Shown here piece after piece: positions 12,157 through 56,200 of a stretch of 64,000 nucleotides of DNA. The stretch is from Tubulanus polymorphus (Eukaryota > Nemertea > Palaeonemertea > Tubulaniformes > Tubulanidae). The first letter of the stretch is position 1. The number at the start of each line of letters is the position of its first letter. Location of the stretch: the NCBI RefSeq assembly GCF_964204645.1, contig NC_134033.1, forward strand, positions 558,001 through 622,000, read 5' to 3'. The position numbers and the translations under genes are program-made. The notes under the pieces were generated by a model. The model was not told where the DNA came from and did not search any database. It worked only from the letters and a program-made list of their open reading frames with translations.

Positions 12157-12772
12157 GCTCAAGTTGTTAGATTGGTTATAAAAAAAACCCGAAATGAGCT
12201 TATACTGATCTTAAGTTGTTAGATTGGCTATAGATATAAAGTTGTTAGATTGGCTATAGAACTTTAGGCGAGTTTAGACTGGCTATAGAACCAAAATGAG
12301 CTGAGACTGGTCTTAAGTTGTTAGATTGGTTATAGAACCAAAATGAGCTTAGACTGGTCTTAAGTTGTTAGATTGGTTATAGAACCAAAATGAGCTTCAA
12401 CTGGTCTTAAGTTGTTAGATTGGTTATAGAACCAAAATGAGCTTAGACTGGTCTTAAGTTGTTAGATTGGTTATATAACTAAAATGAGCTTAGACTGGTC
12501 TTAAGTTGTTAGATTGGTTATAGAACCAAAATGAGCTTCAACTGGTCTTAAGTTGTTAGATTGGTTATATAACTAAAATGAGCTTAGACTGGTCTTAAGT
12601 TGTTAGATTGGTGCAAGAACCAAAATGAGCTTAGACTGGTCTTAAGTTGTTAGATTGGTTATATAACTAAAATGAGCTTAGACTGGTCTTAAGTTGTTAG
12701 ATTGGTTATAGAAAATAAGGTGAGATTAGACTGGTTTTAAGTTGTTAGATTGGTTATAAAACCAAAATGAGA
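12157..12772. repeat. Family A 47-bp minisatellite, reverse orientation
   Basis: About 13 copies of GACTGGTCTTAAGTTGTTAG, then ATTGGTTATAGAACCAAAAT, then GAGCTTA run here. This is the reverse complement of the unit at 2044-2834. Unit variants alternate (ATATAACTAAAATGAG, GTGCAAGAACC), suggesting higher-order duplication. It lies between Gly-rich genes 1 and 2. Confidence 0.85.
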
Positions 12773-15585: not shown

Positions 15586-15998
15586 CTGAGTTGCGAGGTT
15601 TAATTTGACTCTGAATCCAGTTCCACAGTTGTGTGGGTTTAATTTGACTCTGAATCCAGTCCCACAGTTGTGAGTGTTTAATTTGACTCTGGATCCAGTT
15701 CCACAGTTGTGAGGGTTTAATTTGACTCTGGATCCAGTTCCACAGTTGTGAGGGTTTAATTTGACTCTGGATCCAGTCCCACAGTTGTGTGGGTTTAATT
15801 TGACTCTGGATCCAGTTCGACAGTTGACTGTGTGGGTTTAATTTGACTCTGAATCCAGTCCCACAGTTGTGTGGGTTTAATTTGACTCTGGATCCAGTTC
15901 GACAGTTGACTGTGAGGGTTTAATTTGACTCTGAATCAAGTCCCACAGTTGACTGTGTGGGTTTAATTTGACTCTGGATCCAGTCCCACAGTTATCCC
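15586..15998. repeat. 39-bp minisatellite related to family C ends
   Basis: About 10 copies of GTTTAATTTGACTCTGGATC plus CAGTTCCACAGTTGTGTGG occur, a few with a CAGTTGACTGTG insertion. The CCAGTTCCACAGTTGTG part is the terminus of the palindromic family C elements. Related arrays are at 30375-30685 and 57946-58200. Confidence 0.85.
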
Positions 15999-17593: not shown

Positions 17594-17768
17594 GACGAGA
17601 GAAATCCCACAATAACAAAGGCTAACCCCAGTAGATTTCGGCTAATCAGTTGATCAGTACGCCTGATGATGGCTAACAGTTGTTAGCCGAAACGTCGTTC
17701 CTCAAATACAATCATTCTGATATAGAATTTTTCAATCTTGGCTTCGTTATTGTGGGATTTCTCTCGTC
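17594..17768. mobile_element. Inverted-repeat element carrying a hammerhead-like core (P1)
   Basis: The left end GACGAGAGAAATCCCACAAT and the right end ATTGTGGGATTTCTCTCGTC are perfect inverted repeats. The same terminal words (GAGAATCCCACAAT) bound the hammerhead array at 53191-53599, so both belong to one family. Confidence 0.75.
17663..17696 (+). ncRNA. Hammerhead-ribozyme-like core
   Basis: The parts are CTGATGA, one T, helix II GGCTAAC-AGTT-GTTAGCC (7 perfect pairs), GAAAC and GTC, matching the hammerhead consensus CUGANGA...GAAA...NUH. ACGT can pair with itself between two molecules as a helix III. Helix I is weak here (one or two pairs). The extra T before helix II departs from the commonest consensus. 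Activity is untested. Confidence 0.5.
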
Positions 17769-45274: not shown

Positions 45275-45770
45275 CCCGTCCAGACTGTTAGAGTGGTCTC
45301 CTACCCATTAGGAGACACCGTCCAGACTGTTAGAGTGGTCTCCTACCCATTAGGAGACACCGTCCAGACTGTTAGAGTGGTCTCCTACCCATTAGGAGAC
45401 ACCGTCCAGACTGGGAGAGTGGTCCCCTACCCATTAGGAGACACCGTCCAGACTGGGCAAATAGTCTCCTTCCCATTAGGAGACACCGTCCAGACTGGGA
45501 GAGTAATCTCCTATCCATTAGGAGACACCGTCCAGACTGGGAGAGTGGTCCCCTACCCATTAGGAGACACCGTCCAGACTGGGCAAATAGTCTCCTTCCC
45601 ATTAGGAGACACCGTCCAGACTGGGCAAATAGTCTCCTTCCCATTAGGAGACACCGGCCAGACTGGGCAAATAGTCTCCTTCCCATTAGGAGACATCGTC
45701 CAGGCTGGGCAAATAGTCTCCTTCCCATTAGGAGACACCGTCCAGGCTGGGCAAATAGTCTCCTTCCCTA
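45275..45770. repeat. 42-bp minisatellite, 12 units, each with a hairpin
   Basis: The unit is ACCGTCCAGACTGTTAGAGT, then GGTCTCCTACCCATTAGGAG, then AC. GTCTCCTA and TAGGAGAC pair around CCCAT in each unit. Units drift from the left type (GTTAGAGTGGTCTCC) to the right type (GGGCAAATAGTCTCCTT). 42 is divisible by three, so open frames run through on both strands; no start context or splice support makes them genes. Confidence 0.9.
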
Positions 45771-47899: not shown

Positions 47900-48072
47900 A
47901 AAAGCGAAAAACCCAATTAGATGGAATAAAATCTACGAATGAGTCGGACGTTTAAACTCAAATCGGAGCCATTTTTGTATTATTCAGATTTTGAAAATGG
48001 TTCATAGATTTGAATCGAAACGTCAGACTCTCTGCTAGTTTTTTCATCTCACTGTGGGTTTTTCGCTTTAGC
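47900..48072. mobile_element. Inverted-repeat element (AAAGCGAAAAACCCA ends)
   Basis: AAAAGCGAAAAACCCA on the left and TGGGTTTTTCGCTTTA on the right are inverted. The interior contains the GAGCCATTTTTG/GAAAATGGTTCATAG hairpin shared with 31926 and 46338. Confidence 0.65.
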
Positions 48073-50229: not shown

Positions 50230-53200
50230 TCAGTAGGGCCCGAAACCATTAGCCACAGACGGGCGAGTTTTATCGGCAGACGATCTGATATTTGGCGGTA
50301 CTCGCGGCGGTGCTGCTCGTGATGTAGCCGCGAAACTAGCGGCCACCGCAGAACGGGAATTATTCGCTGCAGTTCCCGGAGCCGTCCTCCAACTGTTCGG
50401 TATCTCCTACAATTATAATTCAAATTCCCTGTCATACCAATTAAACTGACCACAAATCAAATTCAAGTTCGTTGAAACGAGTAGTTCTATGAAGCAGCCG
50501 TTTGAGGCGGTTACGTCACAACTTACCTCGTAAATTCGTGGTTCTCTCTCGCTCGAGTCGAAAGCTGAATAGAATTGGAGAATCATATTTAGAATTCTCT
50601 GAATAATAAAGTTCGATTTCGAATTGACTTTAAAACAACGAACCGAATGGATTGATAGGTGCGCGCATTGTGATATAGGCGTCTTCAGCACGATCGGTCC
50701 AAATATTCTTCTGCAATTAACAAATAAAGAATGAATTTAAGTTACGTAGGCTTAGCGTATCTACAGTATTCACAGTGACGCGGGATCCCGGAGGTGACCG
50801 ACCATATGACGTCATATTTTCATAATAGAGCGGCCTTTTTTGTCTCAATTTTGTCTCTAATTTTATTTCGATGAAATCACACGTTATTGCCAGTTGCTAA
50901 ACGAAGCAAGTTGATTGTTTAGGGAAAAACAGTCGAAACGTATCATGACATCAATTCACTCAATAATTTCTAGCATTCATTGGTCTTCAATTCGCTTCAA
51001 AACTTTTCCTCCAAGACGTGTTGCACCGATTCAGCGTCAACCTAGGTCTGAACAGATTACAACATCAAAACTACCACTGACGATAATTTAAACTTACGTA
51101 ATAATCGCGTTCTCGGATCGCCTCGCTTATTCGTATCTGCGTTTGCCTCAATTTCTCATCCAGTTTCATCAACTATTATCAAAAATATCCAAATATAGAC
51201 CTGGGGCCGGTTGCATAGTCATGGCTTAGACTTAAGACCAGTCTAAGACCAACTTGGTTCTATAGCCAATCTAACAACTTAAGACCAGTCTTGAAATTTG
51301 AAACCATTTTTGGACTCTGTGCAACTGGCCCCAGGTTTACTAATTATGCTATTCCGGATTACCGCTGGTGGAGGTGCGGGGCATTTACGAACAAACGGAT
51401 GGTTTTCGGATGGTGCCCGAAGGTACTTATGAACAATTAAATTTGTGATTTATTTTACTGGTGCCGACCTCGGTTGTTTTCTGTCGACATTTCTGTTCGA
51501 CTCGAGTTTTCTCCGTTTCCAGATTCCTCACTCGAATTCGCAGAGTTTTCGCGTCGCCTTCCAATTCGCGGACTTTCCGTCTGAGTTCGCGAATCTCGTC
51601 CGTGTCGTGGAGCTGTGAGTGAACAAATCGACAGACATCAAAACAGAAAACGTATATACAGCGTGTATTATTCACATCTTACGAATAGAACGATTACCAC
51701 ACTGAAACGTTGTGAACGGATAATAAGATGAAAACCCACTATCTACAGATTAAAAGAATTTAAAAACAAGAATTTATTCGACCAATCTAAAATATATATA
51801 GAATACACGACGTTTCGATCTCACCCTAGAGATCATCGTCAGGTGTGTTTTTAAATTCTTTTGATCTGTAGATAGTGGGTCTTTATCTTATCTTACGAAT
51901 GATTTTATATGTTTTGTAACAATTTTCAGAAAAATAAAGCTTAGTATCTATCTAAAATGTGGGGACAAAGTCCTTTTTTTGCGTACACCAAGGTCCGGAG
52001 ACCATATATTGGGCTAGGTCAAATGATCCCTGGGCTGGGTTTCCCTAGATGAGGAAGCAAAATAGTCCCTGGAAACATTATGAAATGTGTGAAGTTATAA
52101 GCATGGTCTCTCATCGTTACTATAGTGGTTGTCACTCAGATTGAGGATTTATTCCTAGGAAGGGGTAAACTTTGATACTCAGTCTAACTGAACTAACAGA
52201 AACTGATGTTGATTTGTTTTTGTGTAAGTTACCTGTAAAGAACGATCCTCGAATGTAGCCACGAGTTCATTCAAACGTTCCTGAATCTCCTCTTTATCCC
52301 GCGCCAGTCTCTCCCGATCGCGACGTTCTTTATCGAAATCTTCTTTATAGATCGTCACCTAAAACAAAGAATAGTTTTATTCTAAATCTCTAACCATCCC
52401 CGACTTCATTTTAAAGACAGTATCGGTACCTGCATCTTGAGAACTTCGTTTTCATCTTTGATGGACTGTAAATTCTCTGGAAGTTGCACCGGCTGCTCCT
52501 GCTGCTCCCGAGGAGGAGCGACGTTCGGCTGATGGATGGATGCCGGCTGAAACTGAATCTGTCCAAGGAATTCTTCTTGTTCATCCTTAGAAAAAGAAAT
52601 TAAATTCATTAGTCTTTTCGTTAGGTCGGTGCAGTGCTCCACCTGTGGTTCTACCAGCTCCGCCATCCTACCCTCTTCCTCGGTGATGTCGACACAGGTC
52701 CGATCAATGTCCGACCAAACATGGATCTTTTGAAAATTCCAAAAATGTATTCATTTTGTAATTAAACACGTGGTTGTTCTGTTTTTTTTAAAAGAAACTC
52801 CCATTTGACATAATCAGTTTAATAAGTATATAAGAATGGAAGATATGGTCCAGAACTATGATAGGCGATGATTTAGTGACAATCTTGTTAAAATGCATGT
52901 GGATGACTCTATAACAAGTTTTAGACCCCGTTCTGTCCCTCTCCGCGCTCCCTCGTCCCTCTGCGCAGCAACACTCACCCGAATCTGTTGGATTTTACGT
53001 TCAAGTTCATTCGCTTGTTCTCTCAAAGCAACTTTCTCATTTTCACTCTCCAACTGTCGAGTTTCCAGACTAGCGCATCTCTGCTGTTCAACGTGCAGCT
53101 GTTGTAAGGCTTCCTCTTTATCGCGCTACAAACATCGAATCGAACAAACAATCAGAAACTATTTCTAACGTAGAAAACAACTTCAATTAAGAGGAGAGAA

Positions 53201-56200
53201 TCCCACAATGATAATAAAAAGTCCGAAAATGAAACTTCGAGATAGTAGTTTATTTCAACGTTTCGACTATATCCTAATAGTCATTTTCATTCCTGAAGAT
53301 GACTATTAGAATATAGTCGAAACGTTGAATAAACTACACTAGCTCAAGGAATACAGTATTCCTGAAGATGACTATTAGGATATAGTGGAAACGTTGAATA
53401 AACTACACTAGCTCAAGGAATACAGTATTCCTGAAGATGACTATTAGAATATAGTCGAAACGTTGAATAAACTACACTAGCTCAAGGAATACTGTATTCC
53501 TGAAGATGACTATTAGGATATAGTCGAAACGTTGAAATAAACTACTATCTCGAAGTTTCATTTTCGGACTTTTTATTATCATTGTGGGATTCTCTCCTCA
53601 TCGCGTCAACACGGATATAGTGTTCTACCAATCGTGAACTTCAATTAAGTTTTCCTAGTCATGAAAACCGAAATACAACTAATAGGTTAACTATTCGTGA
53701 TTAATACTTCGTTGTGTATTCTACGAATGAAGCAACGCCTTAATAACTGGCCCCGTTGCTGCTACTATCTCTAAACATTAAGTAAAGCCGGGCGTAGGTC
53801 GGCCTTGTGACAGCTTGCGACTCACTGCGACCGCCAGCAAAGACCCGCCGACCTACGCTACCTTGCGACGCTGGCGGCGGGTTGCGACTGCCACTGAACG
53901 CCAGTCGCAATGAGTCGCACATGTTCTACTTCCTGCGACGCGACGTGACCGTGACCTCTTGAGACTGGCAGCAACTAGTCTGAAACAGTTGCTGACAATC
54001 GCGTCGCAAGGCCGACCTACGCCTGGCTTAACAGTGAAAACGACTGGCTACATGACTACCGAGCCCAAAGAAATGTCTTTATAAACTACTTTAAGTTGTA
54101 AGGTTGTAACTATAGGCTATACCCGTGCACTTAATTACATATTCTCTCTGAAAATGTCATCATAAAGACCTGTTCGGTATCAAGTTTTCGTTTCAGGTTA
54201 ACCATCCAGCGGTCTATTTCGGCAGTCCTTGTTTCAGCCTGCTCAGTCAGTTCGATCTCTTTTTCTCGAGCGCCCGCTAGTTCCTCTTTCAGTTTGTAGA
54301 TATCGCGCTCGTGTTCGCTTTTCATGTCACTGCAGTATTTTTCCCATAGACGATTTGCCTTCTTTAACTATAGAATGCAGAGAGAAAGGACGGAGATATT
54401 TTAATTTGTTGGTTGAGTCCTGGACTCATATTCGCTATTTTCAATGCGTAATGACGTTGTCAAGTTAATTAACGTCGATAATATCAAACTACGTTATTTT
54501 TCAACGTGTAAACTTTCATATATAAGTTTTCTTGTATATTTTGACCGCAGACTCGTCCGAAACGCAGTTGTTTTCACAATCACCAGTGTCTCAATAAAGC
54601 GGCCATCTTGGATCACGCGAGATCTCACTGTGATCTCGCGGGACTTTGAAAACACCAAGATGAAATAGATTGTTCAAATTAATGAATTTTTTGTAGAAAA
54701 TACATTTAATTTGTAGATAGTGGGTTTTTAATTCGTTATCAATTCACCACTTTGAGTGTGGTTATCGTTCTACCAAGATGAAATTGCTCGAATAAGAACT
54801 AAACTGACTTCGGCCATATTCCGTTTCATTTTCTCCTTTTCTTCGTCGAATTTCCTCTTCAGTTCGTCGCCATCGTTTCCTAACAGCGTCGCCTTCATAA
54901 CGACCGGTTCTGACGGTTGATCACGTGCACGTGTCGAAGTCGCTGATTGGCTAGCGGCAGGGGTCGTCTGCTCTTTCTGAACTGGTTTTCTCTCCGTTGA
55001 CGTTGATTCGGAATTGACGGAATTCTCCGACGTCGCCGATGATCGTCTGTTGTTACCTTGCTCGGCGAGTTTGCGTTCGGAGACACCGAGACGAGCTTTC
55101 AACACGTCCATGTCATTCCTGCATTTAAAAACAGAATTAGTTAGAGACACTAAATCAGCTGAAAACGACCCGGTTACTCAGCCATGGCTAGGATTTAAAA
55201 ACAGTCTAAGACCATCTGAATTCAGGGCCGGATCCAGAGGTCAATTATGAATGAACTTGTCACATCCCAAAAGGGCACTTTCATATCCAAAAAGGCAATA
55301 TCACGCGCACCCCGCACTTAGAGATGAAGCAATTATCTTTGTTGCCAAGGAGGTGAAAGGACACAAAACACAAAAATTCCATGGACTTAGAGCAAGTCAC
55401 ACACGTCCCCAGGCCCTAGATCCGTCCCTGAAGTTCTACAGTCAATCAAGACACAACAATTTATCTTGGACTACAGTCAAAACTGCGCAACTGGCCGCAG
55501 GTGCCACTTCAGACTCGTGACAGTGCAGTAGACACAAGTATCCGCAAAATATAGATCTAGTATCCCCCTTCTTTCGTGTAGAATTTCTCAATTTTGCTCA
55601 TGATCAGAAAAAGAACTTAGAAATAAATGATCATAATATTGAACTGACTTCATGGAGTTGACCAGCGCTCTGAGCGACATATTCTCGTCGTGTAGTTTCA
55701 CATTCTCTTGCTACAAAATACAAGTTTATATCAATCAATACACGATGATGTCATAGGGGGATTTATGACGAGCAGACGATCGAATGCGCAAAAAAACCTA
55801 CAGTGTTTTTGTATGCTCTGGACTCGAGGATGAGTACGGCTTTATGAAGGTTGGAAAGGGATGGAGAGAACGGATTCTGAGTCTGACCGAGCGCGTTAGC
55901 TAGAGACATCGATAAATCCTGTACCTGCGCCGAAACGGGCGTCTCGCCTTCCGGAGCTGGAGTCACCGGAGCTGTCGGAGCCACCCGCTGAATGGAGAAA
56001 GAAGCGAATTAGACCGTGAATAGATTACAGTAGAATGTGTTGCCTCGGATCAAACGTTGGACTAGACGCCAGACGACAGTACAGACGCCAGACGACAGTA
56101 CAGACGCCAGACGACAGTACAGACGATTCGTCATCTTCACATGAATTGAAACATTTGAATGGTGTTTAAGCCATACGTGTCACGTGATTAATCTGAAGCG

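Follow-up and report, generated by a model that had tools for sequence, protein, structure and literature searches.

In the nemertean Tubulanus polymorphus, a 64,000-nucleotide stretch of contig NC_134033.1 (positions 558,001 to 622,000; hereafter the window, in whose own numbering coordinates are given) carries four hammerhead-ribozyme-like units in a tandem array. Our analysis makes it very probable that this array belongs to a single inserted Penelope-like element (PLE) of the non-autonomous type, at positions 53179-53648, that its hammerheads come from the pseudo-long terminal repeat (pseudo-LTR) of a parent element, and that the array, a form present mostly near chromosome ends, is copied together with the element.

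The CTGAAGA motifs of the four units start at 53293, 53362, 53431 and 53500, exactly 69 bp apart as claimed in a first-pass annotation of the letters alone, and Tandem Repeats Finder likewise reports a period of 69 (3.7 copies, 96% matches) over 53289-53545. In each unit CUGAAGA is followed by an extra U, by helix II (GACTAT/ATAGTC with a six-base loop), and then by GAAAC and GUU; the core thus contains one additional U between A9 and helix II, which the first-pass annotation does not mention. All four units lie on the plus strand, unit 1 at 53288-53331 (C3 at 53293, predicted cleavage after 53326), unit 2 at 53357-53400 (C3 at 53362, predicted cleavage after 53395), unit 3 at 53426-53469 (C3 at 53431, predicted cleavage after 53464) and unit 4 at 53495-53538 (C3 at 53500, predicted cleavage after 53533). 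The six-pair helix II and the helix I of 4-5 bp that the first-pass annotation had described for every unit are not uniform. Units 1, 3 and 4 do have a six-pair helix II, but in unit 2 ATAGTG replaces ATAGTC, and this C to G change (26C>G) breaks the core-proximal G-C pair into G-G. Helix I (TATTC/GAATA) measures 4-5 bp in units 1-3, but is down to 3 bp (TTC/GAA) in unit 4, where GAATA is replaced by GAAATA. The short stem III would be compatible with the dimer arrangement suggested earlier.

That the units are hammerhead-like is borne out by a covariance model built from 11 sequences of other hammerhead families of the same genome, a set that includes neither window sequence nor any GACTAT helix. 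This independent model matches units 1 to 4 with 51.7, 42.4, 52.0 and 45.3 bits respectively, at E-values, to be read as rough, of 1.8e-13, 1.3e-10, 1.4e-13 and 1.6e-11. At the genome level, the pattern CTGANGATG-N14-30-CGAAACGTY has 3453 matches in 268 Mb and none in the reversed control, and CTGANGAG...CGAAACGTY, in which G directly follows A9, has 24 (control 1), several of them resembling point variants of the U-containing form; both counts depend on the patterns used and are no census. The listed matches comprise several families differing in helix II sequence. In an alignment of 21 examples (19 distinct; window units 1-3 included, unit 4 left out) the extra U and the AC/GU of stem III are present in all 21 and the CUGANGA and GAAA core columns are invariant, features which the pattern that selected most of the examples had demanded. 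Covariation of the helices was observed directly in the same alignment: 80.9% of helix cells are paired, compared with 63.8% in shuffled and 25-42% in slid controls, the share being 91.2% for helix II and 68.4% for helix I, and 48 cells are changed on both sides against 17.0 in shuffles.

The anatomy of the enclosing element can be read directly from its repeats. The first-pass annotation had taken 53191-53599 as an inverted-repeat element, and inverted arms of 99 bp, complementary at 98 of 99 positions, are indeed present; the element, however, is larger. Its left arm (53191-53289, minus strand) is an inverted pseudo-LTR fragment. The right arm (53501-53599, plus strand) overlaps hammerhead unit 4 and is a PLE pseudo-LTR from the hammerhead onward, ending in GTGGGATTCTCTCCTC. 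Beyond the arms, there is a PLE 3' tail of 37 bp (ATCGCG...ATCGTG; 53600-53636, plus strand), which includes a small hairpin, AACAC-GGATATA-GTGTT, at 53608-53624; the similarity of the copies stops at the end of this tail, and the flanks beyond are unrelated. The outermost parts are the two identical copies of a 12-bp target-site duplication (TSD), AACTTCAATTAA, at 53179-53190 and 53637-53648 (both plus strand), which bring the whole element to 53179-53648. PLE tails are 30-40 bp long, and the range of PLE duplications is wider than 8-10 bp. Arms and 3' tail are common to the copies of the element elsewhere in the genome. Loci L001-L032 contain 24 distinct tail sites, 18 of them with the left arm end also in the locus, and TSDs of 9-16 bp were observed in 16 of these 18 elements with both ends, whereas swapped flank pairs gave a duplication of at least 9 bp in 3 of 306 cases.

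The parent was also identified directly. In three loci with reverse transcriptase (RT), L036, L037 and L038, sequence covering hammerhead, arm and tail is 97-100% identical to all or part of 53495-53637, and it is to their pseudo-LTRs that the right arm shows 97-100% identity. The open reading frames (ORFs) of L038 (833 aa) and L037 (828 aa) are uninterrupted and match RVT_1 (6e-10) and GIY-YIG (2e-5, 3e-5) above the Pfam cut-offs; that of L036 is interrupted, and a relative, L033, also matches both families. An ORF of this kind is present in L037 and L038 and absent from the window element. Since the three loci have the same hammerhead, arm and tail together with RT ORFs, the window element is a non-autonomous PLE, and the link to Penelope-like elements drawn earlier is supported. 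Each pseudo-LTR of L036-L038 contains at most one match to the hammerhead pattern. In the parent PLE the tail continues into the ORF, and in L033 it is present twice, once ahead of the ORF and once as the 3' terminus. A GTGGGATT motif and a small hairpin of the form ACAC...GTGT recur in the tails of two PLE families (at 895 and in the 3652 region of L033, and at 53608-53624 in the window); in the parent they lie just upstream of the ORF start and are possibly a recognition or start site for the RT. A plain DNA transposon of the miniature inverted-repeat type was considered for the window element and dropped in view of its tail, the length of its TSD and the existence of parents with RT.

Variation in the number of units was likewise observed directly. 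With up to 3 mismatches, the genome contains 1391 matches to the linker and 838 to the arm, and the same hammerhead occurs in three states: single in the RT-bearing pseudo-LTRs, single in short elements, and in tandem, with 3 to at least 25 copies of the 69-bp unit per fetched locus, the longest array running to the locus edge. In five arrays the first unit is preceded by the upstream sequence of the parent, ATCTCATTATTC. The 26C>G change of unit 2 was found again in unit 2 of the arrays at C8:969k and C8:1121k, and the element at C8:1121k has a TSD different from that of the window element, which suggests that arrays are copied as arrays; other variants of the window units are not common to arrays in the same way. 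A 67-bp linker form, with ACTACTAGCTC replacing ACTACACTAGCTC, occurs at C3:26022014-26022131 and similar places and is perhaps the ancestor of the 69-bp unit. In L052, a similar single-copy sequence lies next to a hammerhead.

The arrays are concentrated near chromosome ends, a bias that is a matter of direct counting. Of 59 array clusters, compiled from listed matches merged within 20 kb, 55 are no more than 3 Mb away from a contig end, compared with 27.5% expected if they were uniformly distributed. This set leaves out C1:16521249 and C1:1111003, two of the 24 places of one listing which have no array linker, and the related interior tandem pairs at C1:20906487 and C2:7171652 also fall outside it. 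On contigs C1 and C2, the zone within 1.25 Mb of an end holds all 11 array clusters, as against 9 of 66 arm loci (Fisher p 2.5e-8). Among the best-scored RT-bearing loci (55 after merging, from 63 scored of 1562 candidates), 3 are within 3 Mb of a contig end and the median relative distance is 0.41. The first 100 of 926 hammerhead tandem pairs, a few of which are chance pattern matches, lie within 3 Mb of an end in 11 of 13 cases on C1, 63 of 64 on C2, 17 of 18 on C3 and 3 of 4 on C4. These listings were cut off by score or order and not by distance to an end. The window itself begins about 0.6 Mb into C9, which starts with telomeric CCCTAA repeats; no telomeric repeats were seen at the contig ends of C2 and C3, the two others read, and 'end' therefore means contig end here. 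Minisatellites abound in the window (67 tandem-repeat rows, for example at 2110-2783, 12274-12771, 15597-15993 and 45276-45768), which is in keeping with a subtelomeric position.

A number of observations weigh against our interpretation, or against any catalytic part of it. A TSD is missing at 2 of the 18 tail-bearing ends. Two of the five covariation measures are not above shuffles (pairs with double change, 8 against 7.2; further pair types, 18 against 18.4). The Rfam models, which had been named earlier as the covariance check, report no hammerhead in the window, the four array units included, and it is the model from other families of this genome that finds all four; however, Rfam at the gathering cut-off likewise reports no hammerhead for two PLE loci (L033, L036) and the array L070, so this test is insensitive here. 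Movement of the element in trans, the route of amplification and any cleavage are inferred. The orientation of the array relative to the tail varies, as is directly visible in ten TSD-flanked array elements, and is sense in three and antisense in seven; of the seven, L014 and L016 lack any hammerhead-like match in sense orientation and the other five retain one in an arm, which may be core-defective.

The remaining adverse points concern RNA cleavage. Isolated 44-mers of units 1 and 3 are predicted to fold into stems I and II, but the predicted probability of helix I is 0 in the array context because the linkers pair with each other; in a fold of one unit with both its linkers, the successive linkers are predicted to pair and to occupy C3. 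Unit 4 sits in the arm duplex. Helix I is also poorly predicted for the parents L036-L038 (0-0.08), so folding discriminates poorly and is not taken as a verdict. Conservation of the core above the linker was sought in 50 distinct internal units (149 of 151 matches passed the filter, 110 of them internal) and the opposite was found, with 1.77 variants per position in the core, 2.08 in helix II, and 1.0 each in helix I and the linker. The core being more variable than the linker, the arrays give no sign of selection for catalysis. If the units cleave at all, cleavage is probably weak and would involve dimers joined by the self-complementary ACGU of stem III.

The greater variability of the core, the concentration near contig ends and the 67 tandem-repeat rows of the window would also suit an ordinary subtelomeric minisatellite, in which a PLE hammerhead fragment was duplicated by slippage and spread between ends by ectopic recombination, its ribozyme function being irrelevant. 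The L070 array, which by eye shows no arm or tail in the approximately 160-190 bp fetched on each side, points the same way. We regard this as a possible but clearly less probable account, as 10 array elements have their own, differing TSDs at both outer ends, for which recombination alone is insufficient. The minisatellite account and that of an inserted PLE may be true together, with transposition responsible for the spread and recombination for unit number.

The exact 69-bp period and the single hammerhead in each unit invite a comparison with retrozymes, and a review proposes that PLEs mobilise metazoan retrozymes (PMC7761336). A 69-nt unit would then be cut out by hammerheads acting as dimers, closed into a circle and turned into an array by rolling-circle reverse transcription. 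This route appears improbable: ten arrays lie inside PLE arms and tail with the TSD around the whole, seven of these ten are antisense to the tail, the core in the 50 distinct internal units is not conserved above the linker, and predicted folding disfavours helix I in the array. The published metazoan retrozyme repeats, moreover, are about 150-450 bp long (PMC7229834), against 69 bp here. A broader proposal, a retrozyme-like PLE satellite specialised for subtelomeres, would have neighbouring hammerheads of a single array transcript release 69-nt RNAs as dimers at chromosome ends and the element directed to subtelomeres or kept there, with its RT-bearing parents in the chromosome interior; this we consider unlikely.

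Similarly, the 99-bp arms could make the element a long-hairpin source of small RNAs, forming double-stranded RNA for Dicer or ADAR, and the predicted fold of 53191-53599 (-222 kcal/mol) is compatible with this, as are matches of the arm and unit 1 to microRNA-precursor models of Rfam. These matches are below the gathering scores and probably reflect only the hairpin shape of the arms, so that a microRNA precursor as such was rejected, and inverted pseudo-LTRs have already been described for PLEs (PMC3846280); we give the small-RNA source little credence.

The array lies between coding exons of a gene on the minus strand, which confirms the intronic placement noted earlier. The minus-strand open frames encode coiled coils, with exon borders judged by eye, and 52179-52358 (minus) matches CC2-LZ (NEMO-type) at 1.5e-6 and 29 bits, below the Pfam curated cut-off of 35.3; the gene had been labelled UBAN. 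It had further been supposed that the ribozymes could cut the pre-mRNA of this gene. The location of the element between its coding exons is what an intronic self-cleaving ribozyme processing the CC2-LZ-like pre-mRNA would have, but every complete hammerhead of the array, units 1 to 4, is encoded by the plus strand and the exons by the minus strand. Since the host gene is on the opposite strand, cutting of its pre-mRNA is not supported. The sole minus-strand fragment in the element, a truncated and core-defective hammerhead in the left arm (53257-53284; partial covariance match to model positions 12-39), is without the CUGANGA part of the core in its reading from 53284 to 53257. The element is, in addition, one of many dispersed copies (1391 linker matches), and a processing role in the host gene is hardly credible.

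Across the window, the covariance model picks up more than the four units: two further full hammerheads, two that are partial, and a single weak match (E 1.2). A full hammerhead of another PLE family lies at 51804-51847 (minus; CTGACGA, helix II GATCTC/GAGATC, GTC) with inverted repeats around it, a full PLE-type hammerhead, CTGATGATGGCTAACAG...GCCGAAACGTC, is found at 17658-17701 (plus), and a partial one occurs at 47997-48024.

For the origin of the PLE insertion we envisage the following. The element retains the pseudo-LTR arm and the 3' tail, probably what a PLE needs in cis, and has no RT/endonuclease ORF, so it would most likely be moved in trans by the RT-bearing PLEs of the same genome. 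Target-primed reverse transcription would begin at the tail and leave the duplication of about 12 bp, and the inverted left arm would arise from a head-to-head snap-back, as has been proposed for PLEs in general. The hammerheads themselves are the minimal ribozyme carried by the parent's pseudo-LTR. A 69-bp excerpt, consisting of the hammerhead and about 35 bp, would have been duplicated in tandem in one lineage, after which the array would have travelled with the element, its unit number altered by slippage, unequal exchange or template switching and its orientation flipped between the arms. Such arrays may have inserted, or persisted, chiefly near chromosome ends.

Minimal hammerheads of PLEs, also in tandem, have reportedly been described by Cervera and de la Pena in 2014 and by Lunse, Weinberg and Breaker in 2017. 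The units described here resemble them in the CUGANGA...GAAA core, the possession of stems I and II with a putative vestigial stem III, the location in a PLE pseudo-LTR and the tandem occurrence. They differ in that the 69-bp unit is multiplied into satellite-like arrays, the longest with at least 25 copies, within a short non-autonomous element that lies mostly near chromosome ends. The Penelope of Adineta vaga has inverted pseudo-LTRs, a 31-bp tail, short TSDs and palindromes read as self-priming, and its pseudo-LTRs suffice for integration in trans (PMC3846280); in Anolis PAc reverse transcription begins inside the element, at sites matching the genomic tail, and the same source reports a PLE hammerhead whose action is protein-assisted (PMC11167929). 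PLE duplications are stated to be 8-10 bp. The window element agrees with Adineta Penelope in the head-to-head inverted pseudo-LTR and the tail (31 bp there, 37 bp here), and with both the Adineta and Anolis elements in the short TSD and the RT and GIY-YIG parent, while differing from the two in the lack of an ORF, the internal hammerhead array and the variable orientation of that array. Metazoan non-LTR retrozymes are also non-coding tandem repeats with a type I hammerhead in each (PMC7229834); the monomer here is 69 bp instead of about 150-450 bp, has no stem III loop, and is arrayed within PLE arms, tail and TSD. Terminons, telomere-attached relatives of PLEs, have PLE-type hammerheads and the bias towards chromosome ends (PMC6431247), but the present elements are not giant, have a GIY-YIG parent, lie mostly within 3 Mb of the ends, and show the tail followed by a TSD in ordinary sequence with no attachment to telomeric repeats. 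The W-elements of Schistosoma mansoni, likened here by description, are satellite-like repeats with minimal hammerheads and a very short stem III (PMC8490949); their chromosomal context is different, and cleavage has been demonstrated for them.

Both the element and its ribozyme thus belong to known kinds, and what is new here is that the 69-bp unit is repeated in tandem, that its arrays flip in orientation and that they gather near chromosome ends; no earlier report of subtelomeric PLE hammerhead arrays was found in the search listings of a library that lacks most subscription papers. A 2020 review calls the in vivo role of minimal PLE hammerheads a mystery (PMC7761336). The three hammerhead states within one genome offer a natural comparison of the need for the ribozyme in PLE mobility. 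Additionally, the arrays, which may run with the tail or against it and lie mostly close to chromosome ends, provide a natural comparison for dimer cleavage by neighbouring units and for the gathering of such elements in subtelomeres.

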